A DNA stretch of 64,000 bases from NCBI RefSeq assembly GCF_018398335.1, contig NZ_JAHBRX010000002.1, forward strand, positions 806,001 through 870,000, read 5' to 3'. Below, piece by piece: positions 11,619 through 28,857 of this stretch. Below the pieces are notes generated by a model. The model was not told where the DNA came from. It did no database searches and saw only the letters and a program-made list of their open reading frames with translations. This stretch comes from Chelatococcus sp. HY11 (GTDB lineage: Bacteria; Pseudomonadota; Alphaproteobacteria; Rhizobiales; Beijerinckiaceae). Position numbers and translations under genes: made by a program. Each line of letters opens with the position of its first letter. The first letter of the stretch is position 1.

Positions 11619-12073
11619 AGCGAAAACGTTGCCACGGATACGTATTTGTTCCCCCCGCCCACAAATTTATACTTATCCAAATTTTAGACGTCGGGTTGTC
11701 TGCCCAGCCACCCGGCGACGTCTTATTTCTTAGGATACGAACCTCCACCTCGATTTTTTTTGTATGGTTCTGATAAATAGCCGATTTCTGTCATTTTCAT
11801 GTCGCGGCAGCGAGGAGCGGGGACATGACGTCTGGCATAAATACTACCATGAGGCAAGCGCCGCTTTATCCCCGGAGTGATCAGGAAATTCACTAGAGGG
11901 CAATCATCTCGCCGGCTCTCGGAAGCGGATTAGCGCAGCGTTGGCGCCAGTGTCTTCCTCGCTTCATGTCAGCATGCCAGCAACCGGTGTGGTTATTTTG
12001 CTGGTCATCATTGGCTGGCTCGGGTAGCATATCACCATGCCGTATGGACATCGGATCGGAGTTTTTATCGATC
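11619..12073. other. Long intergenic region before the giant-protein block
   Basis: These 455 bases hold no gene I can support. The part 11640-11800 is clearly richer in A+T than its surroundings and contains an inverted repeat at 11686-11723. Promoters for the leftward membrane-protein gene and the rightward block are expected here, but I see no convincing -35/-10 pair. An in-frame extension of the first block gene back to 11966 exists but lacks coding character and a ribosome binding site. Confidence 0.4.
11686..11723. repeat. Inverted repeat AGACGTCG...CGACGTCT
   Basis: Perfect 8-bp arms (11686-11693 and 11716-11723) around 22 bases, with further partial GGG/CCC pairing inside. On the plus strand a T-rich stretch TTATTTCTT follows, so it may act as a terminator-like hairpin. 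It is equally usable as a protein-binding site. Confidence 0.4.
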
Positions 12074-13057
12074 ATGCCCGTTCGCAAGACTGAAAGCCGT
12101 ATTCCGGAGAATTATCAGGCTTCCGATCTCGGGCAGGCTGGGCTTTCGGCCGACGGGCGCTCAGCCGTTGTATCCTTCATCACATCGCCAGTTGTCATCG
12201 GTAGGGACAATACTTTCGTCGTCTTTATCACGGATGGCGCACTGGCCGCGTCCGTGCAGTCGTTCGAATGGTCCTTCGCCGAGAACGATGGCGCGCCCGC
12301 AGTCGTGACGGCAGGGATCGGCGAGGTCAGCTATCGCCCCACGGCGACAGGCCGTCTCGCAACTGCGGTGCGCTGCCTTGACGGCGGAGGGACCGCTCTC
12401 GCAGCCCTTTCTCTCGATCAATCGGTGGTCTCGCCGCACGCCGGGCTCGAGGCCATGATCGCGGCGGGCGCTGACGAGCCAGGTCCTTCCGCCGCCAATC
12501 CGGAGGTGTCGCGCGAGCTCGTCAACGACTACAATATCTACTATCAGAACGTGGTCCCGCGCTCGGGCGCCACGGATGAGGGCTTCCGGCGCCTGGTTTT
12601 TGCCTTGCTCATGGAAAGTGCATTGCAGACCAGTGTCGCCCGCCGTCAGGCCGATCTCGCGGACATGGAGGCGGTCCTGAACGCGGGATCGGCTGGCTTT
12701 GCGACGCTCGCCGGCCGTGGGTTGGGCGTCGCGGGGTTGCGTCCGACGCTTCTTGCCATGACTGTCGGCCCGCATCTACCTTGGACGGAGCTGCCTGCGG
12801 ATGGCGCGGCGCATGCCCTGGCCGAGGAGGAATTGCGTCGCAAAACGGCGGCGCTCCCTGAGGCAGCGCGCATCGACCTCTTCAATCTCGCCCGCTTTCC
12901 CAAAAGCAGCATCACGCAGTGCGGACGGGCGATCGAAGCCCTCCGTGACCGCTATTTCAACGGCATCGATTTCGACACGGTCCTCGCCGAGCTCAACGGC
13001 ACGCGGGCTCACTGGATCAACAGGCACTACCGGGAAGGGCCCCTGAAGCGCGCGTGA
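12074..13057 (+). CDS. Unknown protein A of the giant-protein block (beta-sandwich-like N-terminus)
   Basis: Product of 327 aa from ATG 12074; starts at 12044 or 11966 are possible but less likely. I recognise no family. Residues about 25-115 alternate hydrophobic and polar residues with a FEWSFAENDG segment and end in SYRPTATGRLATAVRCL, a pattern like PKD/Ig-type beta sandwiches. Residues 145-325 look helical, with several charged amphipathic stretches. No signal peptide or membrane segment is visible, so the product should start in the cytoplasm. It is the first gene of a six-gene block and is followed by gene B after 42 bp. A structural or adaptor role is a guess from context only. Confidence 0.6.
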   Translation: MPVRKTESRIPENYQASDLGQAGLSADGRSAVVSFITSPVVIGRDNTFVVFITDGALAASVQSFEWSFAENDGAPAVVTAGIGEVSYRPTATGRLATAVRCLDGGGTALAALSLDQSVVSPHAGLEAMIAAGADEPGPSAANPEVSRELVNDYNIYYQNVVPRSGATDEGFRRLVFALLMESALQTSVARRQADLADMEAVLNAGSAGFATLAGRGLGVAGLRPTLLAMTVGPHLPWTELPADGAAHALAEEELRRKTAALPEAARIDLFNLARFPKSSITQCGRAIEALRDRYFNGIDFDTVLAELNGTRAHWINRHYREGPLKRA

Positions 13058-13099
13058 CAAGCAACACCCCCGCCGATCCGTGCGGGCTGGAGGATCGGA

Positions 13100-14317
13100 A
13101 TGGGGAGGACGAGCAAGCGATCGCAAACGGCCGGCCATGAGGCCATCCGTCAGCTCGCGCCGAACACCGCCCCCGAGGGGCCCGGCCCCGATCCCGGTGG
13201 TGGTTCGGGCTCGACCTTTCCCTTGCCGCCGGCTCTGGAGACCGCCGCGCAAGCCTTCAGGCAACTTTTCACGGACAATGAATCGGAATACCATCTGCTC
13301 GGCGGCCAGTTCGCCCTGGTGCGCGCCATGCGCGCCGCGTTGAAGACGAAGATCTACGACATCAACGATACCGCCCTGCGCGAGGCGCTGCTCAGCTTGA
13401 TCGAGGATGGCGGCTGGGGCGATCTCGCCGACGCGATACGCTCGGCTGGCGTGCGCATCGGCCAGTCCTACCGGAACGGTCTGCCGGCAGGTCACCCCGA
13501 CAAGACAAAGCCGCTCGGCGTGCTGCGGTCCGGCTCGACGGTCACCGGCACTACGGCCTACACGTCGGCGACGGCTTCGGCACGCCAGACAATGAATGCC
13601 GCACAGGTCTCCGCGGCTGACAAGGCGATCGCCACCGCCGTACTCAACGACAATACCGCCAATGGCGCGTGGGCTTATGAGCGCGTGAACCGGTGGCTCG
13701 GTCAACCCAAGCTCGCCGCCGCGACATTCGACAAGGTTTCCTTGCCGCGGCAATGCGCTCTGTTTCTTGACTCACTCGTCATGTGCGGTTCCGCCTCGCA
13801 ATTCACCGCGAAACAACTCTTGAAAACGCGCAATGTCGCCGCGCAGTCGCTGCCGGCATTCACGCCGGTCACCTTGACGAACCTGAATGCCAAGGACGAC
13901 CGATCGACGACCAACAATCTGATGTTGAACTATACGCCCGGCCAGCTGCAGACTGTCGTCGCGGCCGCGCGCACGCTTCTCAGCGCGGGACGCTATCTCG
14001 TCGCCGGATGCCTGAGTGGCCGCAAGTACGAAGCCGGCGAACATCCGTTTCCCGAACATTACATTCTTCTCTTTGCCGTCGCCGACAAAACGTTTCTGTT
14101 CTGGGATCCGGATGTTTCGGTCACCGATATTGCTGAACTGAGTGGGAAACTTGGACCTGCTATCGGAGTTCTGTTCTACGACGATTCCGATGCCGCCCGT
14201 CCGAAATTCTCGACTGGTCTCGATTTCAACGATCTCTCCGATATCGACATCAACGGGCACCATACTAAACACCGAAAACGCCACCGATATCAGATCGTGC
14301 ACCTGCAAAAACCATAG
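13100..14317 (+). CDS. Unknown protein B of the giant-protein block; papain-like peptidase candidate
   Basis: Product of 405 aa; GGAGG sits just before the ATG. I know no named family for it, but the C-terminal half has a pattern seen in papain-fold peptidases (C39/NlpC/transglutaminase-like). A Cys opens a predicted helix (Cys219 in RQCALFLDSL; Cys229 is a second choice). About 90 residues later comes HYILLFAVADKTFLFWDPD, in which His320 begins a strand and Asp336 follows at the end of the next one. In C39-like enzymes the same His-strand-strand-Asp order completes the triad. Residues 1-45 are Pro/Gly-rich and probably disordered. No signal peptide is visible. If active, it could process one of the giant neighbours; an inactive scaffold is equally possible. 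Confidence 0.5.
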   Translation: MGRTSKRSQTAGHEAIRQLAPNTAPEGPGPDPGGGSGSTFPLPPALETAAQAFRQLFTDNESEYHLLGGQFALVRAMRAALKTKIYDINDTALREALLSLIEDGGWGDLADAIRSAGVRIGQSYRNGLPAGHPDKTKPLGVLRSGSTVTGTTAYTSATASARQTMNAAQVSAADKAIATAVLNDNTANGAWAYERVNRWLGQPKLAAATFDKVSLPRQCALFLDSLVMCGSASQFTAKQLLKTRNVAAQSLPAFTPVTLTNLNAKDDRSTTNNLMLNYTPGQLQTVVAAARTLLSAGRYLVAGCLSGRKYEAGEHPFPEHYILLFAVADKTFLFWDPDVSVTDIAELSGKLGPAIGVLFYDDSDAARPKFSTGLDFNDLSDIDINGHHTKHRKRHRYQIVHLQKP

Positions 14318-14353
14318 CCCGAGCGTTCCCCACTCTGGAGTGAGCCCCGCATC

Positions 14354-17300
14354 ATGTCCCAGAACGCCCTCACCTCCCTCCTCTGCGACATCGCGGTGGC
14401 GTTTGGATCGATCGCCGACATCGATACGCCGGAGCGGGCAGCCGCCCTCTTCGCCAAGCTCGGCTATGCCGTGCCGGGGGCGACCGCCATGGGGGCGCTC
14501 GCTGGCCTCAAGAGCGCGGTGGCCGGGCTCGGCGGCAGCGTCCGGGCTTCCGCCAGCATCGACACCGACAACGGAAAGCTTGCCGCCAATATCGATCTGC
14601 TCGCGCGGCTCGCGGCGGTCGCCGACGCCATGCGCCAGGTCCAATCAGCCCTTCAGGGCGCCGGTGTCCCCAATCTCGGCGAGCTCGTGCCACGGCTGAC
14701 CGACCATCTCCTGCTCGACCATATCGATCGCGCACAGCCGCAACTGCATGAGGGGTTGCTGCTCATTGGGCTGATCGATCGCAACGAGGCGCCGGCGGCC
14801 GGCCAGCCCATGCGGCGTATCAACTGGCGACGCCTGAGCGCCTTGCTCACCGCACCCGGCGAGATCGCCCGGGATGTCTATCGCTTCGACACCAACCTCG
14901 ATATCGATCTGCTCCTCGCGCGCCTCGAAAAGCTGATGCGCGCCTCCGGCATGCCGGGCGGGCGCTACCCGCAAGCGGCCGCGACCAAGGCGGCATTGGG
15001 CAACGCTGGCGCCGGGCTGCCGGAACTGCGTTTCCCCTTCTTCCAGAAAGGCTTCACACCCGAGACCTACAGCCAGTTCGGCATCACCATTTCGCCGGCC
15101 GAGGCCACCGGCGGCAAGCGCCGGGGCGTGGCGCTCCTCCCCTATATCAGGGGTGGAAACAGCTTCCAGTTCAATGTCTGCGATCGCGGCGAGCTTGTCT
15201 TCTCGTCCACGACCGACATTCGCAAGGTCGGCTTTACCGTGCGGCCTCCCTTCACGGCGGAAGGGCTTTTCGATCTCACCGGCGCCTTCGGCGCCAGCAT
15301 TGCCATTCGCGAGAAGAAGGCCCGCGCCGAGGAAGTCACCCTCATCGGCTCGCCCGGCGGCACGCGCCTCTCCGTACAAGGGCTCGGCTTCAACATCTTT
15401 GCCGGCACACCGCAGGGCAAGCTCGACCTCGGCGTCGAAGCCGAGATCGGTGCCTTCCGTTTCGTCATCGATGCCGGTAAGGCAGACGGCTTTCTGCAGA
15501 AGGTCCTCTCCGGCCTGCATGTGGAAGCGGAAACAGACCTCGCCTTCGGCATGGCGCTCTTGTCCGGCTTCACCTTTCGCGGCGGCGGCAAGCTCGCGCT
15601 GGAGCTCAGCACCCATATCGATCTCGGCCCGGCCAAGCTCGATGGCATCCGGCTTGGTCTCGGCCCGAGCAACGACCGCTTCAGCCTCGATACGGGGGCG
15701 CTGCTGAAGTTCGACCTCGGGCCGCTCAAGGCGGTTGTCGAGGACATCGGGCTTTCGACCAGCCTCGATTTCCGCCCGGGCAATCTCGGCCCGGCGCATC
15801 TCAGCGTCGGCTTCAAGCCGCCGAAGGGCGTGGGGCTGTCCGTTGATGCGGGCATCGTTACCGGTGGAGGCTATCTCAGCCTCGATCCCGAACGGGGCGA
15901 ATACGCCGGCGCCATCGAGCTCAGCTTCAGCGGCATCGTCGCGCTCAAGGCCTTCGGGCTCATCTCGACCAGGATGCCCGATGGCACCAAGGGCTTTTCG
16001 CTCGTCATCATCATCTCGGTCGAGTTCGGCACCGGCATCCAGCTCGGCTTCGGCTTCACGCTGCTGGCGGTTGGCGGCCTTATCGGCCTCAACCGGACGA
16101 TGAATCTCGAGGCGCTGATGGACGGCGTGCGCACCGGCTCCATTGAATCCATCATGTTCCCGCGGGACGTGGTGGCGAACGCACCGAAGATCATCAGCGA
16201 TCTCAGGACGTTGTTCCCGGCGCAGGAAGGCACCTTCCTCATCGGGCCGATGGCCAAGCTCGGCTGGGGTACGCCGACGCTGGTCAGCGTCTCGCTCGGG
16301 ATCATCATCGAGATCCCGGGCAACATCGCCATCATCGGGGTCCTGAAGGTGGCGATCCCAGCCGAGGATGCACCGCTCATCATCCTTCAGGTCAATTTCG
16401 CCGGCGCCATCGAATTCGACAAGCAACGCATCTATTTCTTCGCCTCGCTGTTTGAATCCCGGGTCGTCTTCCTCACCATCGACGGCGAGATGGGATTGCT
16501 CGTGGCCTTTGGCGACGACGCGAATTTCGTCGTCAGCGTCGGTGGTTTCCACCCCCGTTTCGCGCCGCCGCCCCTGCCCTTCCCAAGCCCAAGGCGCATC
16601 AGCGTCAGCCTCCTCAGCACGCCGTTGTCCCGAGTGAGGATCGAGGGCTATTTCGCCGTCACTGCCAATACCGTGCAATTCGGGGCGCGGGTCGAGGTCT
16701 ATTTCGGCTTCAGCGCCCTCAACGTCAAAGGCCATCTCGCCTTCGACGCACTGTTCCAGTTCTCGCCCTTCCGCTTCATCATCGAGATCTCCGCCTCGCT
16801 GTCGGCGAATGTCTTCGGCGCGGGGCTGTTTTCGGTGCGTGTCCGGGGCGAGCTGCAAGGCCCCGCGAAATGGCGCATCAGGGGCCAAGGCTCGATCTCT
16901 TTGCTCTTCTGGGATGTCGATGTGGACATCAACGAGAGCTGGGGCGAGAGCGCCGACACCCTGCTGCCGCCGATCGCGGTACTGCCGCTGCTCGCCGGCG
17001 AATATGCCAAGATGGAGAACTGGCGGGCAATCCTGCCCGCAGGGAACGGGCTCTTCGTCACGCTGCGCAAGATGCCGGCCGAGGAAGCAGCGCTTGTCCT
17101 TCATCCCGTCGGCCTCCTGGCGATCAGCCAGCGCACCGTGCCGCTCGCTATCAAGCTCGACAAGATCGGCAATCAGGCGCCCAGTGACGTCAACCGGCTG
17201 ACGATCGATGTCGCCGGCGGCGGGCTCGCCAAGCGCGACGACGCCTTCGAGCCCTTCGCGCCGGCGCAGTTCCAGAATTTCTCAGATGCCGACAAGCTGT

Positions 17301-17737
17301 CGCGGCCAGCCTTCGCGCCGGAGAAATCCGGTTTGCATCTGTCCGCAGCAGGTGCCGATCTCAGGACGAGCCGCATGGTCAAACGCATCGTGCGTTACGA
17401 AGAGATCATCATTGACAACAACTTCAAGCGCTTTACGCGGCGCTTCTTCCTCTTCGCCGGCACGCTGTTCAATTTCTTCCTCAACGGCGCGGCGATCACC
17501 CATTGCGCGCTCTCGAAGGCCGCCAAGAAGCAGCTCGATCCGTTCGAGGACAAGATCACGGTGATGCCGGAGACCTTTACCGTGGCTTTCCAGGCGACCA
17601 ACAAGGCCTTCGCCGCCAATGCCGGCGCCTTCCGCAGCGAGGCGAGCGCCCGCCAGTTCATGAATGACGTCGTCGCGAACGATCCCACACTGATGGACGC
17701 CGTCCACGTCATTCCAAGCTACGAGCGGGCGGCATGA
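14354..17737 (+). CDS. DUF6603-type giant beta-rich protein
   Basis: Product of 1127 aa. From roughly residue 220 to 870 it is a long series of amphipathic beta strands with recurring GLG, GGF and LDLG turns. Stretches such as GGLIGLNRTMNLEAL, VGGFHPRFAPPP, TANTVQFGARVEVY and FDALFQFSPF match the DUF6603 family as I know it, whose function is not established. The alternating strands recall autotransporter passengers or lipid-transfer beta tunnels (for example AsmA-like), but there is no signal peptide and no C-terminal outer-membrane barrel signature. Residues 1-160 are helical and Ala-rich; the C-terminal 250 residues are mixed. It is third in the block, 36 bp after gene B and 46 bp before gene D. 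Confidence 0.7.
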   Translation: MSQNALTSLLCDIAVAFGSIADIDTPERAAALFAKLGYAVPGATAMGALAGLKSAVAGLGGSVRASASIDTDNGKLAANIDLLARLAAVADAMRQVQSALQGAGVPNLGELVPRLTDHLLLDHIDRAQPQLHEGLLLIGLIDRNEAPAAGQPMRRINWRRLSALLTAPGEIARDVYRFDTNLDIDLLLARLEKLMRASGMPGGRYPQAAATKAALGNAGAGLPELRFPFFQKGFTPETYSQFGITISPAEATGGKRRGVALLPYIRGGNSFQFNVCDRGELVFSSTTDIRKVGFTVRPPFTAEGLFDLTGAFGASIAIREKKARAEEVTLIGSPGGTRLSVQGLGFNIFAGTPQGKLDLGVEAEIGAFRFVIDAGKADGFLQKVLSGLHVEAETDLAFGMALLSGFTFRGGGKLALELSTHIDLGPAKLDGIRLGLGPSNDRFSLDTGALLKFDLGPLKAVVEDIGLSTSLDFRPGNLGPAHLSVGFKPPKGVGLSVDAGIVTGGGYLSLDPERGEYAGAIELSFSGIVALKAFGLISTRMPDGTKGFSLVIIISVEFGTGIQLGFGFTLLAVGGLIGLNRTMNLEALMDGVRTGSIESIMFPRDVVANAPKIISDLRTLFPAQEGTFLIGPMAKLGWGTPTLVSVSLGIIIEIPGNIAIIGVLKVAIPAEDAPLIILQVNFAGAIEFDKQRIYFFASLFESRVVFLTIDGEMGLLVAFGDDANFVVSVGGFHPRFAPPPLPFPSPRRISVSLLSTPLSRVRIEGYFAVTANTVQFGARVEVYFGFSALNVKGHLAFDALFQFSPFRFIIEISASLSANVFGAGLFSVRVRGELQGPAKWRIRGQGSISLLFWDVDVDINESWGESADTLLPPIAVLPLLAGEYAKMENWRAILPAGNGLFVTLRKMPAEEAALVLHPVGLLAISQRTVPLAIKLDKIGNQAPSDVNRLTIDVAGGGLAKRDDAFEPFAPAQFQNFSDADKLSRPAFAPEKSGLHLSAAGADLRTSRMVKRIVRYEEIIIDNNFKRFTRRFFLFAGTLFNFFLNGAAITHCALSKAAKKQLDPFEDKITVMPETFTVAFQATNKAFAANAGAFRSEASARQFMNDVVANDPTLMDAVHVIPSYERAA

Positions 17738-17783
17738 AGGGGCGCGCGGGCGTAATGGCCAGAGCGATGGCGGGGGTGACGGA

Positions 17784-20700
17784 ATGAGCGTGATCGGCAC
17801 CTACTCCTTCCTGCCATGGCTGCGCCAGGGCCTCGCCAATCAGATCGCCTCCGCTGATTTCGATCCCTCGGTCAAAGTCAGGGCCTCGGTGAGCATCGAC
17901 CTGGCGCTGACCGGCGACAAGCTCGGCGGCGGTACGACAGCAGAGACAGTGAGCCGCCCCATGGCGCTGTTTGGCCCCGGCGATATCGTGGGCATCGACA
18001 AGCGCGCCATCGTCCGTGTCGAGCCGCGCGACTGGGTCACGAATTTCGAGCCCAACTATCTGCCGGCCATCGAATTCTACGACGAGGACTTTCCGTGGCG
18101 CTACACACCGGCGGCGCCCGATCTCGGCCGGGGGCGGCTGCGTCCCTGGCTTGCCCTCGTCGTCCTCGCGGAAGGCGAGTTCAAGGACGGCAAGGCAGGG
18201 CTCGACCGGCCGTTACCTTATGTCGACGTCGACAATCTCGCCGCCTTTCCCCGCGCCGACGAGCTGTGGGCCTGGGCCCATGTCCATGTCAACCGCAGCC
18301 TCGCGGCAGGCGACAGCGAGTTCGTCTCGACGGATGTGAACGCGGTCCTGTCGAAATTCGGCGCGGTCCTGGCTGAGAACCCTGATCTCGCGTATTCGCG
18401 GATCATCTCGCCACGCAAGCTGGCGGAGAACACCGCCTATCACGCCTTTCTCGTGCCGACCTTCGAGACGGGGCGTCGCGCCGGTCTCAAGATCGAGATC
18501 GGCGACGATGTTCCCGCGACGTTGTCGGCCTGGGACGCCGGTCGCCGGCCTGAGCCGCAGAGCTTTCCCTATTATCACCGCTGGTTCTTCCACACGGGCG
18601 CGCGTGGCGATTTCGAGATGCTCGTCCGCCTGCTCAAGCCGAAGCCGGTGGATCCGCGCGTCGGCACACGCGAAATGGACGTGCAATATCCGGGCGCCAA
18701 TGTCGCGGGGCTCGATAAGCCGGAGCTGGGCGGCATCCTCAAGCTCGGGGGCGCGCTTCGCCCCCCGGCCAAGGTGCCGGCCACACCACCGGACCTATTC
18801 GAGACCTGGGACGATCCCTTTCCGAGGCCGCTTCAGGAGGATCTCGCCCGGCTTCTCAACCTGCCGGACGACTATCAGCGCGCGGGCGACCCCGACCCGA
18901 TCATCGCGCCGCCTCTCTACGGGACCTGGCATGCGCTGACGAAGCGGGTGCTGAGCGAGGCCGACGGTTCGCCGGCGGCAACCCCGGACAACTGGGTGCA
19001 CCGGCTCAATCTCGATCCGCGCTTTCGCGTACCGGCAGGTTTCGGCACCCGTGTCATCCAGGACAACCAGGAAAAATACATGGATGCGGCCTGGGAGCAG
19101 GTGGGCAACGTGCTCGAGGCGCAGCGCCGCATCCGCTTCGGCCAGTTCGCGGTGAAGGTCAGCGAGATCTGGTACGACCGCCATCTGCTGCCGCTCGTCG
19201 GCGTGAGCCGGCAGAAGGCCCTCCTGCTCATGGCGCCGCTGAACAAGCGTATTCTCACCGGGGCTTTGACCATCCACCACGCGCAGGCGACGAGCCTGCT
19301 GCAGCCGGTCATGACATCGGCACCCTTGCGCCGCATCATCCGGCCACGCGGGCGGCTGATCAGCGCCCTTCCCTTCGACGCCGCGCGCCCGCCCGACCAG
19401 CTCATTGATCGCGTCAACAAAGGCGAGGTCAGCGCGGCACCTCCCAAACAGACACCGCCCGGCCTCTTCACCGCCGATCAGGCGGCGGACGCGCTCGTGC
19501 CGGCTGCCGCGCCGCCCTGGGTGGTGGATTGGCTGAAGCGCCTGCCGCCTCTGCCATGGCTCGTCATTCTCGTCGCCATTCTCATCGCTCTCCTCTGCCT
19601 CCTGGTGCTGTCACCGACCATCGGGGTCCTCCTGGCGGCGGTCGTCATCGCCGTCGGGGTCTATCTCAGGCGGTGGCTCAACCAATGGGCTCCCTCCGTC
19701 GCCGCGTCAGAGGCCTTGAAGGAGGACAACCAGACGCCAGCGGCCGTCGATGCCATGCCGGGGGCTGGCGGCTTCGTGATCACCGAGCCAGGCTCCGGAT
19801 TCCTGCCCGGTCGCGGGCCGGACAGCCAGGAGGCAACGCGTTTCAAGACCGCCCTGAAGGAGGGCTTCGCGCTCGTCCAGGCCAGCGCCGCCGCCGGCGC
19901 GGCCCCGGTCCGGCGTCCGCTCGATCTCGATGGCCTCACCGCGACAGCCGTCAAGGCGATCAACCCCACGCACACGATCCCGCGCCGTATCCGCGCCGGC
20001 ATTTTCGTTCCGCCCCGCCTCATCATTGAGATCGGGGAAGCCTTCGTCGAGCCCATGGCCTATCCAGTCATCGACCAGCCGATGTACGAACCTCTGACGG
20101 CGCGCTCCTCGGAGCTCTTCCTGCCGAACATCAATCTCATCGCGAATAATTCGATCACGCTGCTCGAAACCAACCAGCGTTTCATCGAATCCTACATGGT
20201 CGGCCTCAACCATGAATTCGCGCGCGAGCTCCTGTGGCGGGAATATCCGACAGACCAGCGCGGCTCGACCTTCCGCCAATTCTGGGATGTGCGCTCGTTC
20301 TTCAACAGGGACAATCTCGACGACGAGGCGCTGAAGGAAAAACTCCGCGACATCAAACCCCTCCACACATGGAGCCGGACGTCCTCTCTCGGCAGCCACG
20401 ACAACCGCGAGGCCGTCGCCGGCGCGACGGAGGAAGAGCTGGTGCTCGTCATCCGTGGGGAATTGCTGAAGCGTTATCCAACCGCCGTCATCTATGCCCA
20501 TCGCGCCGTCTGGCAACGCAAGGACGACGGCACGGAGGCCGACAAGGCCCGTGAGCCGTGGGATCGCCATGGCCCGATCGACAATCTCAAGGAGCGGCGC
20601 CTTGCGCCTCTCACCGCCGCCGAGGAGGCCAATCCGCCGAAGTCCAAGGTTTTGACGCCGCTCTACCAGGCGCGCGTCGAGCCCGACATCTATTTCTTCG

Positions 20701-21089
20701 GCTTCGACCTCACCGTGGAGAAGGCAAAAGGAGGCACGGGCGCCGATCCCGACGACGATCCCGGCTGGTTCTTCGTCATCAAGGAGCGCCCCGGTGAACC
20801 CCGCTTCGGCCTCGACATCGAGAACCAGCCGAAACTGAATGTCTGGAATGATCTCGCCTGGGACGACGTGCAGCCCAATGCGCCGGGCAGCCATATCGAG
20901 ATCGCAAAGGCGCCCGCCACCCTCACGCTCGTGACGCCGACCGGCACCGACAGCGAGAAGGCCGTACAGTTCGCCGACGACAAGAAAATCGCCTGGAGCC
21001 ACGGCATGAGCTCCGCGGAACTCGCTTACATTCTCTTCCAGGCCCCTGTGCTCGTTGGCGTCCACGCCAGCGAGATGCTTCCGAAGTGA
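17784..21089 (+). CDS. Unknown protein D of the giant-protein block, with a central membrane hairpin
   Basis: Product of 1101 aa of no family I can name. Residues about 588-630 (LPWLVILVAILIALLCLLVL, then GVLLAAVVIAVGVYL) form two adjacent hydrophobic segments, a likely membrane hairpin in an otherwise soluble protein. The flanking halves are rich in Trp, Pro and Arg. The segment NHEFARELLWREYPTDQRG (about 810-828) followed by FRQFWDV is a striking, probably conserved block that I associate with uncharacterised giant proteins in other bacteria. A late segment ARVEPDIYFFGFDLTV looks like a strand pair. No signal peptide is visible. The next gene begins 10 bp downstream, pointing to translational coupling and matched amounts. 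Confidence 0.6.
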   Translation: MSVIGTYSFLPWLRQGLANQIASADFDPSVKVRASVSIDLALTGDKLGGGTTAETVSRPMALFGPGDIVGIDKRAIVRVEPRDWVTNFEPNYLPAIEFYDEDFPWRYTPAAPDLGRGRLRPWLALVVLAEGEFKDGKAGLDRPLPYVDVDNLAAFPRADELWAWAHVHVNRSLAAGDSEFVSTDVNAVLSKFGAVLAENPDLAYSRIISPRKLAENTAYHAFLVPTFETGRRAGLKIEIGDDVPATLSAWDAGRRPEPQSFPYYHRWFFHTGARGDFEMLVRLLKPKPVDPRVGTREMDVQYPGANVAGLDKPELGGILKLGGALRPPAKVPATPPDLFETWDDPFPRPLQEDLARLLNLPDDYQRAGDPDPIIAPPLYGTWHALTKRVLSEADGSPAATPDNWVHRLNLDPRFRVPAGFGTRVIQDNQEKYMDAAWEQVGNVLEAQRRIRFGQFAVKVSEIWYDRHLLPLVGVSRQKALLLMAPLNKRILTGALTIHHAQATSLLQPVMTSAPLRRIIRPRGRLISALPFDAARPPDQLIDRVNKGEVSAAPPKQTPPGLFTADQAADALVPAAAPPWVVDWLKRLPPLPWLVILVAILIALLCLLVLSPTIGVLLAAVVIAVGVYLRRWLNQWAPSVAASEALKEDNQTPAAVDAMPGAGGFVITEPGSGFLPGRGPDSQEATRFKTALKEGFALVQASAAAGAAPVRRPLDLDGLTATAVKAINPTHTIPRRIRAGIFVPPRLIIEIGEAFVEPMAYPVIDQPMYEPLTARSSELFLPNINLIANNSITLLETNQRFIESYMVGLNHEFARELLWREYPTDQRGSTFRQFWDVRSFFNRDNLDDEALKEKLRDIKPLHTWSRTSSLGSHDNREAVAGATEEELVLVIRGELLKRYPTAVIYAHRAVWQRKDDGTEADKAREPWDRHGPIDNLKERRLAPLTAAEEANPPKSKVLTPLYQARVEPDIYFFGFDLTVEKAKGGTGADPDDDPGWFFVIKERPGEPRFGLDIENQPKLNVWNDLAWDDVQPNAPGSHIEIAKAPATLTLVTPTGTDSEKAVQFADDKKIAWSHGMSSAELAYILFQAPVLVGVHASEMLPK

Positions 21090-21098
21090 GAGGGCGCC

Positions 21099-24000
21099 AT
21101 GGCTGATTTCAATGATCTGCGCGTCGCGCTCAACACGACACGATCGGCGCTCGATGGTCTCCAAAGTGAGATCGCGGCGCTCAGGGCGCGCCTGAAACGC
21201 CTCGAAGACGAGGACGCCGCGGCTTCCCGCCGCTTCAATCCGCGCGATGAAGCCGACGTCGCGGCACGGGAGCACCGCGCGGCGGACAAGCGCCTTCTCG
21301 CATCCAGGCTCGCGGATCTGCGCGAGCGCGAAAAGGCGGCCCTGACGGACGAAATCCGCATCCGCACCGATTTCGCCGATTTCACAGATCCGCGCAGGGG
21401 GATTTCCAACCTCGGCGACGCGACGCCGATCCTCATGATGCCGATCCGGCTTGAGACACGTTTCAAGCCTGCGCGGGAAACCGGCGCAAGTACCGATGAA
21501 CTCTGGCTGCGCGTCTATCCCGATGACTGCTTCATCACCACCTTCGATCCGGCGCTGACCCCGGCGGAAGCGGCGGATGCGCGGAGCTATTGGGCGGGTA
21601 TCTGGTCGGCCGGCGGGCACGAAGACGAGGAACGCGCGGCCTGGCGGGCCATCGCCACCACCCATGGCGCGGGACGGGCTGGCTGGATCGTCGACCAGTT
21701 CCCAGAGATAGCCGCCTCGGCCCGGCCGACCAAGCCAAGACCACAGGACATCGTCCTGACCGTCGTCACCGAGACGCCCCTGCCCGCCGCCGAGGTCGCC
21801 GCGCTCGCCCCGTTCTGGCAGGCGGCGTGGCGCGCGCAGGGCGACGCGACCGCGTTGACGTCGGCGCGGGAGGCGCTCGCAGCGGCCGTCGGCCCGGATC
21901 GCGCCGCGGCGCTGGCGGCGGAAACCCAGCCTGCCAATTTTGCCGTCGCACCGGCGGCGGGCAACGATCCGGCGAGCCTCAATGTCGCCGTCGCCTTCCT
22001 CGTTTTTCCACCCGTCGAGACCAAGGAGAGCGCCTGGGCGAGCGCGCCGAAGATGACGCTCCTGCCGGATCGCTTCGTCTTCATCGGCTATCGCGGCAAC
22101 GCGGCCCCGCGCATCGTCCTCGGCAATCCCGTACCGGCGACGCTCTTCGTGGGTCCGGATCCTCAGGCCGATGCGGCGAGCCAGATCCATCACGACGACG
22201 ATGGCCATATCGCCATGCCCGACGCGCTCAAGTGGATCACGGATTTCCCGCAGGCTGTCGAGGACGGTATGGGCTTGCGGATCACGCTGGATCCGGACGA
22301 AGCCAAAGGCGGCTTTGACCGGGTGCTCGTTGTCGGCCTGCGGCTGAGCGCCGACGCGACAGAAGGGGCCGCCCAATTCGCCGCGCTGCTACGCGGCCAC
22401 GCCTGCGGCCGGACCGGACTCGCCGTTTTGCCGCAAGGCACGCCGACCAACAACACCGAGACGGTTTCATCCGGTCACGCCCGCCTCGACGATCCCGATG
22501 CCGCCTTCGACGATCGCAAGTCCGCACTTTTCATTCCCGATGCCGACTGGCTCGACAAGCGCGACGGCGAATGGCTGGCGGACTATCTCGGCATCGACAG
22601 GCAAGTCTTCGCGCATGTGCATGGCGCCGGTGCGACCGACCAGATCGCCGCGCGCGCCATGAACACGGCACTCTGGCCCGCCACCCTGGGCTACTGGATG
22701 GAAAGCTTGATGTCGCCGGTCTTTCCGCATCGGGTGATCGAACAGACGCGCAGCTTCTTCAATCGCTATGTCATCGCCGGCGGCGCCGTGCCGGCGCTTC
22801 GCATAGGCGCCCAGCCTTACGGCATCCTGCCAGCGACGGCCTTCTCGCGCATGGCATGGCTCGAGGCCCGCGAGCGCCCGCTCCTGCGCGGCGAGGACCC
22901 GACGCTTGCCTTTCTGAGGGAGCTGCGCCGGATCATCGCCGCCTTCGAGACAGACTGGCGCACTATCGGCGCCGGTCTCGCCCATGTCGGCAAGGCGGGC
23001 GACCCGCACCAGATCCTGCTCGATATCGTCGGGCTCCATTCCGGTTCGGTGGAATGGTCGCAACGCTATGCCGAAAGCCTGAAGACGGTCTTCAACCGCC
23101 TCAACCTCCTCGGCCTCGGCGGGCTCATGGAGCAGATCAACATCAGCGTGCGGCAGGCGGCCGCCCGCCAGATCCTGGCCAATCTCGGCTACGCCGGCGA
23201 GGAGACGCCAGAGATCTTCGACAAGCTCTTCTCGGGCCGCCACAACCTCCTCAAGGGCGGCGTCGTGGATGACGTCCCCCTCTCGGAGACGGCTCCCATC
23301 CGCGCCTATACGCCCGATGGCCGGAACTATATCGAATGGTTGAGCACGGCTTCCGGCACCTCGCTCAACGCGCTTTATGCCCAGGACGGCTTCCTCGACG
23401 ACAAGCCGCCGAAAGCCCTGCTCTATCTCATGCTGCGCCATGCCTTGCAGCTCGGCTACCATGATGTCAGCGTCCGCCTCTATGAGAACGCCGCGTTGAT
23501 GACACCAGCGGCAGCCGTCCTCGCCCGGCAGGACAGTCCCTTTCTTCATATCCAGGCGGCGAACACGCTCAGCGAGAGCCGCTACCAGATACTCCAAAGC
23601 GCCGAGGCCACAATCACCGGCTCGGCAACCCAGACGGTCTCGGATTTCATCACGGCGCAGTTGCCGACCTTGAACCTCGCTTTCCATCTGCGGGACCAGC
23701 GCGCCGCCCTCGAGCGCCTGAAAGCGGAACCCACGGCGCGCCTCGAGCGGGTTTTCGCCGATCACGTCGATTGCCTGAGCTACCGGCCGGACGCCTGGCT
23801 GCTCGGCCTCGTCACCTATCAACTTACACGCATGCGCAATATCGCCGACGGCGAGGACCGCGAGCCGCGGCGCGGTCTTCATCTCGGCGCTTATGGCTGG
23901 CTGGAGGAACTGAGGCCGGAGAACAAACATCTGACGCCGGTCCGGCTTGATGACCCGGAACTCGCCGCGGATTTCAGCGATCCCGAAGCGCCGCCCCTGA

Positions 24001-26672
24001 TGCGCGACGACACCAACCAGGGTTCCATCCACGCGCCTTCGCTCAACCACGCCGTCGCCGCCGCGGTGCTGCGTAACGGCTATATCACCAATGCGGGCAA
24101 GCCGAACGGCGAGACCATGTCGGTCAACCTCTCATCGGAGCGCGTGCGCACGGCGCTCGCGCTGCTGGAGGGCGTACGGGCGGGCCAGGGCCTCGGCGAT
24201 CTCCTCGGCTACCAGTTCGAGCGGGGGTTGCACGACCGTCATGGGCCCATCGAGGTCGACAAGTTCATCTATAAATTGCGCAAGGCCTTCCCGATCCGGG
24301 CTGACCGCATGACATCCACCCGCACCGGGGAAGGCGTGCCCGTCGAGGCGATCGAAGCGCGCAACGTCATCGATGGCCTCGCCCTGGTCAATCACATGAA
24401 GGCGGGTGGCGCCTCAACCTACCCCTTCGGCAAGGCGAACCTGCCGCCTGCCACCGCCGCCGAGGCCGCCGCCATCAACGCGGAGGCCAAGGCGCTGGTC
24501 GATGCGCATGACGCCGTCGCAGATCTCGCACTCGCCGAGGGTGTCTACCAGGCCGTGCTCGGCAATTACGACCGGGTGGCCGCCACTTATGACGCCTACG
24601 CGCGGGGCAATTTCCCCCCGGAGCCGGAAGTGGTGCGCACGCCGCTTGACGGTATCGGGCTGACCCACCGCGTCGGCCTGCATCTCGATGCAACCGCGAG
24701 CCCCACGACCTCGCCACTGGCGGGTGTCGCGATGACCCCGCGCGCCCAGGCCGAGCCCGCCCTGAACCGCTGGCTCGCAAGCGTCATGCCCCCGCCCGCA
24801 GAGGTCGGCTGCGTCGTTGCCTTCACCGAAGCCGCCACGGGCGGAGAGCGGACACGGGAGGTCACGCTCGCCGATCTCGGCCTCCAGCCGAGCGACAGCC
24901 TCGCCCTCGTCGGCCATGACAGCGAACAGGCCATGCGCGAGATCGATGACCGCATCCTCCGCCATGTGATGGAGAATTTCGCGCCGCGCCCCGACAGGCC
25001 GGTCACCATCCGCTACATGGAAACCGAGGCCGCCCCCATTTCCCTCTTCGCGCTGAGCCCGCTGCTCAAGGCCCTGCGGCAGCTCACCACCAAGTCACGC
25101 GCGCTGAAGCCGAGCGATCTCACCCTGATGAACGAGGCGACTGTCGCCCAGGACGCCGCGCCGGTCATCGAGAAGGCGAGGCTCGATCTAGTGCAGGCTG
25201 CGATGGCGAGCCTGCACGCTGATCTCACGGCGTTCCAGGCCGCGCTTAATGGGCCGCTCGCCGATCTCGACAATCGTCGTGGGGAGATCCTCGACCACAT
25301 CGACGATCATGTGACGGCGCTGGTGGCTCTCATGGCGCGGGCGGCGCTCTTCGCCATTCCGCAAGCCGGTTGGGGCATGGCCTATGACTTCAAACGGCGC
25401 AGCTATGCCGCCGTGCTCGCACAATTCGCTGAGCGGGTGGCGCGCTGGGACGCCCAGCTGGCCATCTTCGATGCCACGGTCACCACCTATGGCACCCTGC
25501 CGGTGGAGACGAGCGATGATGAGCGCTTCAGGCTGCTCGTCCAGGCGGAACAGGCGATTTCGGCCACGGCGACGGAGGTGCTGCCGCCGACACCGGCCGC
25601 CTTCCTCGCGGACCTCGCGATGAAACGCGCCGCCTTCGTGACCAAGCAGGCGGCGCTCAAGAGCCTCGAGAACACGACGGAGACGGGGCTCGTCGGCCTG
25701 CTCGCCGAAGCCGCCGCCCATCTGCCGACCGACGACTTCGATCCGCTGCCCTTCACCCTCGCGGAGCGCGAAGCCGAGATCATTCGCTTCGCCGAGGATG
25801 CGGCCCTGCTCATCGCCCGCATCGCGGCCGAGATCGAGCGCCGCCTTACCCTGTCCCAGAACCACTTTGATGCTCACGACGCGGCCGCGACGGCGACTGA
25901 AGCCGCGACCGCGCTGGAAAAGGCGGCAAAGGCCCTCCTTGGCGAAGATTTCCGCGTCATCCCGACGTTCCGTCTCGGGGCGGGTCAGAGCAGCGAGATG
26001 GCGAACGCGCTGGCCGCCACCCAGTCCGGCGATCTCTTTGCCTATCTGACCGCAGCACCGGACCCGGCGACGCCCGCCATCGCGCCCTTGCCCGTGGAGA
26101 CCTGGCTCGCGGGAATTGCCCGGGTGCGCGACAAGTTGCGCGCCTTCGAGCAGATCGCCACCTTTACCGGCGCCTTCGGCCGCGATGAGCCGGAGCTGAC
26201 GCCCTTGCAGCTTCCCTTCATGCCGGACGACCGCTGGCTGGCCCTTGAATTCCCGCCTGATCTCGCGCTGGACAAGGACCGGCTGCTGTATAGCGCGGTC
26301 TTCGCCGCCCCGTTCGACGGAACGGCGGGGCAATGCGGCCTTTTCCTCGACGAATGGACCGAGACGATCCCCGGCGCCAACGCCACAACCGGGATTGCCT
26401 TTCACCATGACCGGCCGAACACGGAGGCGCCGCAGACCATGCTTCTGGTTACGCCCAGCGATTTCCGGGGCGCGTGGCAGTGGGAGGACCTGGTCGATGC
26501 CCTCAACGAGACGCTCGACCTCGCCAAGCTGCGCGCCATCGAGCCCGCCCATATCGACGCCACGCCCTATGCTCCCTTCCTGCCGGCAACCGTGATGGCC
26601 GCCCAGGCGCGGCAACTGACCATCGCCGCCAATCTCGTGCTCAACAACAGCTTCAACCTTGTCCGGCCTTAA
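21099..26672 (+). CDS. Unknown protein E of the giant-protein block (1857 aa)
   Basis: The largest protein of the window. Residues 3-92 form a heptad-like coiled coil (LQSEIAALRARLKRLEDED and onward). After it come blocks that look conserved: TPILMMPIRLETRF, LRVYPDDCFITTFDP, FVFIGYRGN, GNPVPATLFVGPDP and LPQGTPTNN. A second long helical, Ala/Glu-rich region (about 1360-1610) contains further coiled-coil potential. No signal peptide, membrane segment or enzymatic motif is recognisable. The gene starts 10 bp after gene D and ends 10 bp before gene F. The coiled coils and size suggest a scaffold or assembly subunit; that is inference. It does not look like a known phage tail, polyketide or RHS/toxin protein. 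Confidence 0.6.
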   Translation: MADFNDLRVALNTTRSALDGLQSEIAALRARLKRLEDEDAAASRRFNPRDEADVAAREHRAADKRLLASRLADLREREKAALTDEIRIRTDFADFTDPRRGISNLGDATPILMMPIRLETRFKPARETGASTDELWLRVYPDDCFITTFDPALTPAEAADARSYWAGIWSAGGHEDEERAAWRAIATTHGAGRAGWIVDQFPEIAASARPTKPRPQDIVLTVVTETPLPAAEVAALAPFWQAAWRAQGDATALTSAREALAAAVGPDRAAALAAETQPANFAVAPAAGNDPASLNVAVAFLVFPPVETKESAWASAPKMTLLPDRFVFIGYRGNAAPRIVLGNPVPATLFVGPDPQADAASQIHHDDDGHIAMPDALKWITDFPQAVEDGMGLRITLDPDEAKGGFDRVLVVGLRLSADATEGAAQFAALLRGHACGRTGLAVLPQGTPTNNTETVSSGHARLDDPDAAFDDRKSALFIPDADWLDKRDGEWLADYLGIDRQVFAHVHGAGATDQIAARAMNTALWPATLGYWMESLMSPVFPHRVIEQTRSFFNRYVIAGGAVPALRIGAQPYGILPATAFSRMAWLEARERPLLRGEDPTLAFLRELRRIIAAFETDWRTIGAGLAHVGKAGDPHQILLDIVGLHSGSVEWSQRYAESLKTVFNRLNLLGLGGLMEQINISVRQAAARQILANLGYAGEETPEIFDKLFSGRHNLLKGGVVDDVPLSETAPIRAYTPDGRNYIEWLSTASGTSLNALYAQDGFLDDKPPKALLYLMLRHALQLGYHDVSVRLYENAALMTPAAAVLARQDSPFLHIQAANTLSESRYQILQSAEATITGSATQTVSDFITAQLPTLNLAFHLRDQRAALERLKAEPTARLERVFADHVDCLSYRPDAWLLGLVTYQLTRMRNIADGEDREPRRGLHLGAYGWLEELRPENKHLTPVRLDDPELAADFSDPEAPPLMRDDTNQGSIHAPSLNHAVAAAVLRNGYITNAGKPNGETMSVNLSSERVRTALALLEGVRAGQGLGDLLGYQFERGLHDRHGPIEVDKFIYKLRKAFPIRADRMTSTRTGEGVPVEAIEARNVIDGLALVNHMKAGGASTYPFGKANLPPATAAEAAAINAEAKALVDAHDAVADLALAEGVYQAVLGNYDRVAATYDAYARGNFPPEPEVVRTPLDGIGLTHRVGLHLDATASPTTSPLAGVAMTPRAQAEPALNRWLASVMPPPAEVGCVVAFTEAATGGERTREVTLADLGLQPSDSLALVGHDSEQAMREIDDRILRHVMENFAPRPDRPVTIRYMETEAAPISLFALSPLLKALRQLTTKSRALKPSDLTLMNEATVAQDAAPVIEKARLDLVQAAMASLHADLTAFQAALNGPLADLDNRRGEILDHIDDHVTALVALMARAALFAIPQAGWGMAYDFKRRSYAAVLAQFAERVARWDAQLAIFDATVTTYGTLPVETSDDERFRLLVQAEQAISATATEVLPPTPAAFLADLAMKRAAFVTKQAALKSLENTTETGLVGLLAEAAAHLPTDDFDPLPFTLAEREAEIIRFAEDAALLIARIAAEIERRLTLSQNHFDAHDAAATATEAATALEKAAKALLGEDFRVIPTFRLGAGQSSEMANALAATQSGDLFAYLTAAPDPATPAIAPLPVETWLAGIARVRDKLRAFEQIATFTGAFGRDEPELTPLQLPFMPDDRWLALEFPPDLALDKDRLLYSAVFAAPFDGTAGQCGLFLDEWTETIPGANATTGIAFHHDRPNTEAPQTMLLVTPSDFRGAWQWEDLVDALNETLDLAKLRAIEPAHIDATPYAPFLPATVMAAQARQLTIAANLVLNNSFNLVRP

Positions 26673-26681
26673 GGATCCGCG

Positions 26682-28580
26682 ATGTCCGAGAAGCTCATCA
26701 CGGCCAATCTGGCCGCAACGATCGCCACCCGCGCCCTGCCGGGCATCACCCAGTGGAACAGGCTCGAAGGCCGCCCCCGCACCGAGAATTTCGAACGGGC
26801 CCTGCGGGCCGAGATCCGCGATCCCCTCTGGCTTCTGACCCGCCAGTGGCAGATGGGCGAATTCCGCGGTGATGACGCGGGATCGCCGATCTTCGCCCGG
26901 GCCCGTATCGAAACGACACGGCTTACAGGCTATCGCGCTGCCGATGGCCCGGCCGAGGCCTTCGACACATCGCTGCCGCTCGAGGCGCGTGTCGAGCCGC
27001 TGCCGGTCGCGCTCTCCCTCGGTGATCACGACATCGCCCTCGATATCCGGCTGATGCTGGGGCGTTACTGGCTGAAACTGATCAAAGCTTTGCCCCAGGC
27101 TGCCCGCGACCAGTACATCGCGGCTTATCCCATCCATGCGCCCGACCCGAACGATGCGGCGGACGCGCCGACGCTCGCCCATGCGGACGCCTGGGCGCAA
27201 TTCGCCGCCGTGGCCGGCCGGGCGATGGATGGAGCCAAGCTCTATGCCTATCTGAAGGCCGATCCAGCGCACCGCGCCTCCGACGGCATCGCGGCCCTTG
27301 CCGGCGGCGAGGCGCAAGCCGACGCGCATGGCGTGCATTTCCTCGCCTGGTTCGAGAAACTCCTGCACCAGCCGGCCGAGGGTTCCGCCTTCATTCCGGA
27401 ACGGCTCGAATATCAGTTCAGCTGCGCCACGCCAGCCGCCGACGGCGCGGAGAAGGTCTATGTCGCGGATCAATATTTCCAGGGACATCTCGACTGGTAC
27501 AATTTCGACAGCGATCCCACCCGGACGATGCTTGGCGAAGCGACCACGGTCGGCGGTGAAGCAACCGCTGGGGGGGAGCCTCCTCAGGCGGCCGTTGAGC
27601 CGCCCGAGGTGACGACGCTGACGACGTTGCCGGCGCAGGCGACCTTCAACGGCATGCCCAACACACGCTGGTGGGCCTTCGAGGACGGCCGCACCAATTT
27701 CGGCGACATCAAGCCCGACACCACGGACCTCGCCAAGCTCCTCCTGATCGAGTTCGGCCTCATCTATGCCAATGACTGGTTCGTCGTGCCCTTCATCGTG
27801 CCGGCCGGCGCGATCGCAACGATCAAGGGCCTCGCCGTCACCAATGTCTTCGGCGAGCGTATCTGGATCGAGGCCGCCGGTCGCGGCAACGACGATAACT
27901 GGCAGCGCTGGGCCCTGTTTCTCACGAGCGTCAAGGGGCAGGGCCACCAGGAGGCGGATCTGAGCCTCATGATCCCCCCGGCCGCGCAGAAGACGCTGGA
28001 AGCCGCCCCTCTTGAAGAAGTGGTCTTCGTCCGTGACGAGATGGCGAACATGGTCTGGGGACTGGAGCAGACCGTGCCCCTGCCGACCGGCATGCCGAAA
28101 CCCGGCGCCTCCGCCGCCCGCGAAACGCGGCTCTTCTTTGAAAAGGACGTGGAACGGCGCCTCGGCGCGCCGCCGCAACCACCACCCGCGGCGAGTGGAG
28201 CCAAGATCCGCTACAAGGTCATGAGCACGGTACCGGAAAATTGGATCCCCATGATCCCGGTACATGTGCCCGGCGACAATCGCGAGGTTCAGCTCCAGCG
28301 CGCGGCCATGCTGCGCGTTATCGAAGGCGACCCCGCCCCACCAGCCAGCGTACGGCCGCGCAGCTCGCTGTTGCGCCACGGCCTCGACGAAACGCCACCG
28401 CAGCCGTATTTCCTGCACGAGGAAGAAGTCTCGCGCGCCGGCGTGCGCGTGACCAAGAGCTTCCAACGCACGCGCTGGCGCGACGGCCGTGTGTGGTTGT
28501 GGCTCGGGCTCCGCAAGCAGACCGGGCGGGGCGGAGGCTCGAGTGGCCTGTCCTTCGACCGCATCGTCGATCTGGCATGA
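26682..28580 (+). CDS. Unknown protein F of the giant-protein block
   Basis: Product of 632 aa, last gene of the block. The N-terminus has a strong motif string: ITQWNRLEGRPR, then LRAEIRDPLWLLTRQWQMGE and FRGDDAGSP (about 25-70), which I believe typifies an unnamed family accompanying the other giant proteins. The middle (about 330-400) has LLLIEFGLIYANDWFVVPF and VTNVFGERIWIEAAG, likely core beta strands. A low-complexity Gly/Glu/Pro linker (about 285-310) separates two globular halves. No signal peptide or catalytic motif is seen. No terminator hairpin is obvious after the stop; about 280 bp later the cassette-2 regulator begins. Confidence 0.6.
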   Translation: MSEKLITANLAATIATRALPGITQWNRLEGRPRTENFERALRAEIRDPLWLLTRQWQMGEFRGDDAGSPIFARARIETTRLTGYRAADGPAEAFDTSLPLEARVEPLPVALSLGDHDIALDIRLMLGRYWLKLIKALPQAARDQYIAAYPIHAPDPNDAADAPTLAHADAWAQFAAVAGRAMDGAKLYAYLKADPAHRASDGIAALAGGEAQADAHGVHFLAWFEKLLHQPAEGSAFIPERLEYQFSCATPAADGAEKVYVADQYFQGHLDWYNFDSDPTRTMLGEATTVGGEATAGGEPPQAAVEPPEVTTLTTLPAQATFNGMPNTRWWAFEDGRTNFGDIKPDTTDLAKLLLIEFGLIYANDWFVVPFIVPAGAIATIKGLAVTNVFGERIWIEAAGRGNDDNWQRWALFLTSVKGQGHQEADLSLMIPPAAQKTLEAAPLEEVVFVRDEMANMVWGLEQTVPLPTGMPKPGASAARETRLFFEKDVERRLGAPPQPPPAASGAKIRYKVMSTVPENWIPMIPVHVPGDNREVQLQRAAMLRVIEGDPAPPASVRPRSSLLRHGLDETPPQPYFLHEEEVSRAGVRVTKSFQRTRWRDGRVWLWLGLRKQTGRGGGSSGLSFDRIVDLA

Positions 28581-28837: not shown

Positions 28838-28857
28838 AGATGGGGCCAGGAACCGGT

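Follow-up and report, generated by a model that had tools for sequence, protein, structure and literature searches.

Encapsulins and bacterial microcompartments load unlike enzymes through a short tag or a docking domain. According in part to PMC8213781, extracellular contractile injection systems (eCIS) combine a conserved core with exchangeable toxin cargo and occur in both bacteria and archaea. In this study, we describe a locus of six genes, A to F, in a 64,000-nucleotide stretch of Chelatococcus sp. HY11 (contig NZ_JAHBRX010000002.1, positions 806,001 to 870,000), hereafter the window, which resembles both kinds of system in the way it may work and not in the families of its components. 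Other loci are cited by number, such as L013 of the congener Chelatococcus asaccharovorans.

We consider that loci of this kind probably encode a modular enzyme-carrying protein assembly, in which a conserved core is combined with swappable cargo that is tagged or docked. At the level of sequence, our comparisons demonstrate a conserved core, swappable cargo, co-variation of cargo with one part of C, and a shared docking domain and tag. The parts presumably bind each other, and C to F would assemble together. Under this proposal, C, D, E and F would form the core, and the N-terminal ~420 residues of C would act as a receptor or platform for one class of cargo. In one type of C, the cargo would dock through a C-terminal domain on the enzyme itself; in the type found in the window, the docking element would be A, free-standing or as part of a larger fusion protein. 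A free A is usually accompanied by N-terminally tagged proteins, and here B would be the cargo and A the adaptor. The core would spread horizontally, while the cargo-docking-receptor segment would be exchanged as one block. The proposed carrier role, D, E and F as partners, and the link to cargo are new to the present work; the DUF6603 family to which C belongs was already known. With the match between cargo and receptor, a core of unknown function acquires a loading rule that can be put to the test.

A conserved core with swappable cargo

A profile of D was searched against one-genome-per-species contigs and matched 559 stretches, 489 of which encode a D relative. The best-scoring 80 of these 489 stretches were examined as genome loci, and distant clusters are therefore under-sampled. 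C, D, E and F are all present in 65 of the 80; none of these 65 departs from the common order or strand, and the gaps are of less than 400 bp in 63. The remaining 15 are without a detected C, E or F, and most of them lie on short or cut contigs; they include L071, where C stands behind F, as well as L036 and L082. The four genes are also complete in nine of ten plasmid loci. In the bacterial family of L086 (Filimonas zeae), D occurs in 17 of 394 genomes and F in the same 17; DUF6603 occurs in 31 (29 over the cut-off), those 17 included. The first-pass annotation of the window had set conserved gene neighbourhoods against scattered genes that do not co-occur, and for C-D-E-F the comparison returns the former.

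The gene or genes directly before C vary from cluster to cluster, and the cargo is usually encoded by a separate gene. We scanned 76 of the 84 upstream proteins against Pfam at an E-value of 0.01, omitting eight for size, and obtained matches to S8 peptidases (15), trypsin (10), M64 (5), PhoD (4), the galactose-oxidase E-set (3), tyrosinase (1) and PLD (1). Some cargo enzyme classes were assigned through what we take to be their catalytic motifs.

The C protein is a mosaic. Across 40 homologues, identity to the window protein is 53-69% at residues 421-700 and 42-72% at residues 701-980; stretches within residues 1-420 mostly share 13-31%, unless the homologue belongs to the same C type. At residues 201-260, where the type signal peaks, identity is 54-61% to 11 C proteins of the same type versus 12-15% to 61 of other types, and the signal is gone by about residue 480. 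When similarity of the core was removed, similarity of the C N-terminus and similarity of the cargo gave a partial Mantel r of 0.81 over 88 loci (99 C sequences minus 10 with a short N-terminus or core and one with no upstream gene). None of 999 permutations reached this value, the highest being 0.09, and the core versus the cargo, given the C N-terminus, gave a partial r of -0.12. Judged by similarity, the first ~420 residues of C go with the cargo and not with the core.

Trypsin-like and subtilisin-like cargo proteins of the largest C type have the same C-terminal domain of ~90-150 residues. A profile of this domain, built from the trypsin cargo of 11 loci with no subtilisin cargo in training, matched 32 of 35 loci of the matching C type and 0 of 53 others; outside the training loci, the count is 21 of 24. 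Subtilisin cargo carries the domain in 10 of 10 cases with the matching C and in 0 of 8 with another C, two of the ten (L051 and L081) having been classed by BLAST to other S8 cargo. In L071/L129, which is one contig, the order is D-E-F-cargo-C; an M64 cargo gene stands before C, and the M64 type is the nearest one for cargo and C N-terminus alike.

For the window's C type, the corresponding marker is A. An A profile matched 12 of 13 loci of this type and 0 of 75 others; it was built from six of those 13 loci, and six of the seven outside training match. Two of the matches, L087 and L113, are weak (about 13 bits). A is free in eight loci and forms the N-terminal part of proteins of 1052 and 1055 amino acids (aa) in L054 and L061; it also matches PF24908 (Ig-like) weakly and below the cut-off (E-value 0.0055). 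B occupies the position of the cargo genes in other clusters. The pattern of its N-terminal tag also appears on the tyrosinase of L086 (E-value 1.5e-32), on a beta-lactamase-like protein of L109 (E-value 2.5e-4, just under the cut-off) and its L067 homologue, and on a related pair of 660 and 676 aa in L109 and L065. The tag carriers are thus six proteins with four unlike bodies (B; L067/L109; L065/L109; L086). The tag was noticed first on four proteins and then on the two of L109, a locus added after the pattern was noted. It occurs in 7 of 220 open reading frames (ORFs) of at least 150 aa in window-type loci, B of both L013 and the window included, versus 1 of 2639 elsewhere, the pattern having been defined after the sequences were seen. 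A tyrosinase homologue in L034, where C is of another type, aligns to the L086 protein only from residue 148; because the alignment begins there, the L034 protein is without the tagged N-terminal part (~145 residues).

According to the first-pass annotation, the six genes have a fixed order and may encode a large assembled machine. A single fixed machine of all six would agree with their co-linearity in the window and L013, with the purifying selection acting on them, and with the presence of D in all four Chelatococcus genomes (D is in 0 of 37 other relatives, and of 38 genera among 41 relatives one has the cluster). However, A and B are absent from the great majority of the C-D-E-F loci examined, A following one C type and B having a homologue in L013 only, among L003-L116. 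We find such a machine scarcely credible. A large assembly is still plausible; the fixed six-gene unit is not, since A and B are replaceable and C is a mosaic.

Linkage by itself must also be considered. The 5′ end of C might recombine along with the neighbouring enzyme gene, with no functional docking involved. The covarying part of C adjoins the cargo gene, and the core of C does not follow the cargo. However, linkage poorly predicts a domain that is shared by unlike enzymes and tied to C type, a tag on the L086 protein two genes from A, or the occurrence of A, free or fused, with that C type alone. We regard linkage without docking as distinctly improbable.

Several points weigh against the modular carrier. 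Because the 5′ end of C adjoins the cargo gene, a swapped block of DNA would covary without any binding, and the relocated pair in L071/L129 keeps this adjacency. The C types were set by a clustering cut of our own choice, the tag pattern was defined late, and the Fisher value for the subtilisin cargo (2.3e-5) overstates independence because the loci are related to each other. L035, L063 and L089 have the C type of the docking domain without the domain, and their cargo is of the kelch/galactose-oxidase type. L048 is without A, its sequence stopping at a contig end ~2 kb before C, and L052 and L077 have a free A and no tag. B has no match in Pfam, NCBIfam, PHROGs or PADLOC at an E-value of 1 and no plasmid relative at an E-value of 0.01. 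Many upstream proteins match no family, and the cargo enzymes are identified by matches to families or motifs and not by assay. Finally, L036 without F and L082 without C, in the stretches examined, are unexplained exceptions. With these points counted, the modular carrier is still the reading that we judge probable.

Spread, core proteins and possible use

A search of plasmid records with E at an E-value of 1e-5 gave 13 matches: six in Streptomyces, one each in Gemmatirosa, Nocardia and Rhizobium, and four in haloarchaea. A phylum survey with F over 299 genomes matched the window's own genome only, and viral contigs searched with D and F and phage records searched with C contained no relative. 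The tree of D (78 rows, 14 groups) has 26 phylum changes, where the minimum is 13 and the shuffled mean is 45; phyla are clustered yet repeatedly mixed. The window D is sister to those of Kribbella and Tessaracoccus with full support, and these relatives of the window core have trypsin cargo and unlike C N-termini. As far as sequences can tell, C-D-E-F is a horizontally spread core. The absence of mobile-element genes noted earlier is uncontradicted within the window, although some relatives are plasmid-borne and phyla are intermingled in the D tree. A large core of no described function is present in hundreds of genome loci from at least 14 bacterial phyla, as well as on haloarchaeal plasmids.

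Some plasmid loci have features of their own. L009 (Rhizobium lusitanum) has two adjacent ORFs in place of D and another two in place of E, and no ORF of the same strand is found in the 250 bp before C. The same region before C holds no same-strand ORF in L012, a Nocardia plasmid in which an annotated S8 peptidase (21479-25189) follows F. L011 and L145 are two DUF6603 clusters on one 248-kb Halobellus plasmid, both with molybdopterin oxidoreductase and NrfD genes nearby.

Only C among the six proteins has a Pfam family over the cut-off. The match to DUF6603 (PF20248), which the first-pass annotation had recognized in the third gene, covers residues 421-979 with an E-value of 1.3e-127 and 426.9 bits, against a curated cut-off of 27. 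PF20248 is described in Pfam as a family with function unknown, and our literature search found no paper naming DUF6603 or PF20248. The AlphaFold2 model of C supports the beta-strand array suggested earlier, and it resembles outer-membrane barrels and the beta belt of ApoB100 at a predicted template modelling score (pTM) of 0.43. The membrane hairpin suggested for D is likewise borne out by hydropathy peaks beginning at residues 592 and 611; a central hydrophobic segment is present in 70 of 85 D homologues, and 52 of the 85 have two. The D structure model has long central helices, with weak structural matches to alpha pore-formers, F-BAR and other helical proteins. We infer contact with lipid or membrane for two of these elements, the C beta array and the D hairpin. 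The profile of E shows a weak resemblance to helical bundles at residues ~1320-1600 and, with an E-value of 2 or worse, at residues 1-100, which is consistent with the two coiled-coil regions proposed for it. On plasmids, the annotations read BGTF surface protein for E and lamin tail domain protein for F (two haloarchaeal plasmids), and VCBS repeat protein for D (one Streptomyces plasmid).

By a simple hydropathy window, a hydrophobic N-terminus is present in 0 of 90 D, 0 of 88 E, 0 of 78 F and 1 of 84 C proteins, and 65 of 66 C-adjacent proteins are without one. In the window itself, the earlier statement that signal peptides are absent holds for A, B, D, E and F, and C has a weak stretch from residue 5.

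Among the possible uses of the carrier, export or delivery comes first, yet it is unproved, and we advance it tentatively, as somewhat short of an even chance. In such a use, an enzyme-delivery particle would be made in the cytoplasm and be exported or released, freed by lysis or by a route of its own, and it would reach or cross a target membrane by means of the C array and the D hairpin. Because this particle is a more specific form of the modular carrier, its likelihood overlaps with that of the carrier. The near absence of hydrophobic N-termini from cargo and core proteins suggests it, as do the surface, lamin tail and VCBS annotations, the weak matches of the D helices to pore-formers and F-BAR, and the sporadic, horizontally spread distribution. 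The enzyme families found as cargo are also typically secreted or toxic. The N-termini and the sporadic distribution would also suit a multi-enzyme scaffold or compartment within the cytoplasm, in which proteases and oxidases are confined, perhaps as a means of turnover or as a defence against phage. Compartments load cargo through docking domains and short tags, and the elements found here resemble these. However, the six proteins match neither PADLOC models nor a shell-protein family, and the haloarchaeal annotations are of a surface type. We consider confinement in the cytoplasm unlikely. The modular carrier in its most extended form would be an undescribed class of protein-delivery or enzyme-display particle of bacteria and archaea, in which a DUF6603 protein with an exchangeable receptor end would touch lipid or membrane, and interchangeable proteases, oxidases and phosphodiesterases would be brought to a target through class-specific docking domains and tags. 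This extended form we hold to be doubtful, a little more so than delivery as such.

A second arrangement of DUF6603 occurs at 12 places outside C-D-E-F (L117-L128), in the same bacterial family as L086. The DUF6603 proteins of these loci have 919-3229 aa, and their genes are followed by those for a homologue of the D N-terminus of ~500 aa (11 of 12), a protein of ~310 aa (11) and one of ~1220 aa (10); in some loci, the ~310-aa protein is fused to the D-N-terminus homologue. The homology covers D residues ~34-287 (hhalign 87.8%, E-value 3.4e-6), and hmmsearch with the second-arrangement family finds D with a best E-value of 9.4e-9. Three proteins upstream of the DUF6603 gene were scanned, giving a metallo-beta-lactamase over the cut-off in L127 and EEP under it in L124 (E-value 0.0011). 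Neither E nor F was detected in L117-L128. Because DUF6603 recurs with the D N-terminus in this arrangement, these two constitute the widest part of the core.

The locus in the window

The ORF coordinates (Table 1) confirm the six same-strand genes and their lengths as first annotated. The gaps of 42, 36 and 46 bp also stand, and the last two are both 9 bp and not 10. The description of an operon that encodes large proteins, most of them outside known families, is upheld.

Table 1. Coordinates and proposed roles of the locus features, in window positions.
Feature	Position	Strand	Length	Assignment
Gene A	12074-13057	+	327 aa	Docking adaptor candidate, marker of one cargo type
Gene B	13100-14317	+	405 aa	Putative tagged cargo
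B N-terminal tag	13100-13186	+	~29 residues	Common to other cargo of the same C type
Gene C, whole	14354-17737	+	1127 aa	
C residues 1-420	14354-15613	+		Cargo-type-specific part, candidate receptor; helical at 1-215, then beta (AlphaFold2 model)
C residues 421-979	15614-17290	+		DUF6603 core, array of long beta strands
Gene D	17784-21089	+	1101 aa	Core protein, central membrane-type hairpin
D hairpin (about residues 588-635)	19545-19688	+		Hydropathy
Gene E	21099-26672	+	1857 aa	Largest core protein
Gene F	26682-28580	+	632 aa	Core protein

An alternative upstream ATG for A lies at 11966; we favour 12074 because free-standing A homologues begin at the residue it encodes. The first-pass annotation called B peptidase-like. 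Its Cys/His/Asp pattern, read by eye, is putatively papain-like, but Pfam gives no match at an E-value of 1 and PDB sequences give nothing better than 0.41, and the peptidase assignment is not confirmed.

Scans of the six proteins against NCBIfam, PHROGs and PADLOC gave weak PHROG matches only, the best (E-value 0.0027) to a function-unknown family, and PADLOC, which holds anti-phage defence models, gave none at an E-value of 1. In Pfam at an E-value of 0.05, 44 D and 26 E homologues gave weak matches of single members only (best for E, 0.0049), and 60 F homologues matched no family; D, E and F of the window likewise had no match at this value. Searches of PDB sequences with single B, C, E and F proteins and with profiles of C to F returned designed or generic helical proteins or weak matches. 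A match of E to 9gtp (E-value 0.0068) in the PDB sequence search was judged a probable chance run.

Purifying selection acts on all six genes, as measured against L013, whose D is 95% identical to that of the window. The ratios of nonsynonymous to synonymous divergence (dN/dS) are 0.155 for A, 0.123 for B, 0.084 for C, 0.077 for D, 0.120 for E and 0.117 for F. Synonymous divergence (dS) is 0.29-0.39 in B-F (13100-28577), 0.81 in A (12074-13054) and 0.94 in a downstream gene that we named GntR/FadR-like by eye (28840-29592). The pattern is as if B-F had been swapped between the congeners, perhaps, more recently than A and the downstream gene. Upstream of the locus, ~1.7 kb of the window (10276-11993) lacks an equivalent in L013, where the flanking sequence continues almost without a break; this segment contains nearly all of a membrane-type ORF of 456 aa on the - strand.

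Comparison with known systems

If our proposal is true, the locus would add a new member to the natural modular protein carriers, one equipped with docking elements of its own. The eCIS are built from other components. The six proteins match no sheath, tube, baseplate or AAA ATPase family in Pfam or PHROGs at an E-value of 1, and no feature is so named in the annotated plasmid stretches L005-L012. As for encapsulins and microcompartments, none of the six proteins matches an HK97-fold or microcompartment shell family (Pfam, PHROGs), and the components here reach 1100-1860 aa. The model of C has a fold similar to that of an outer-membrane beta barrel or the ApoB100 belt, but its global fold is of low confidence; in addition, among 84 C proteins a single one begins with a hydrophobic segment, and the C cluster also occurs in Gram-positives and haloarchaea. 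In the Tc (ABC) toxins, the TcA, TcB and TcC families are the building blocks; these are absent from the window proteins (Pfam, E-value 1) and from 26 E, 44 D and 60 F homologues (Pfam, E-value 0.05), and the cargo here is a separate gene. A polymorphic toxin system has a toxin domain at the end of a trafficking protein and an immunity gene beside it; the cargo of the present loci is usually encoded on its own.

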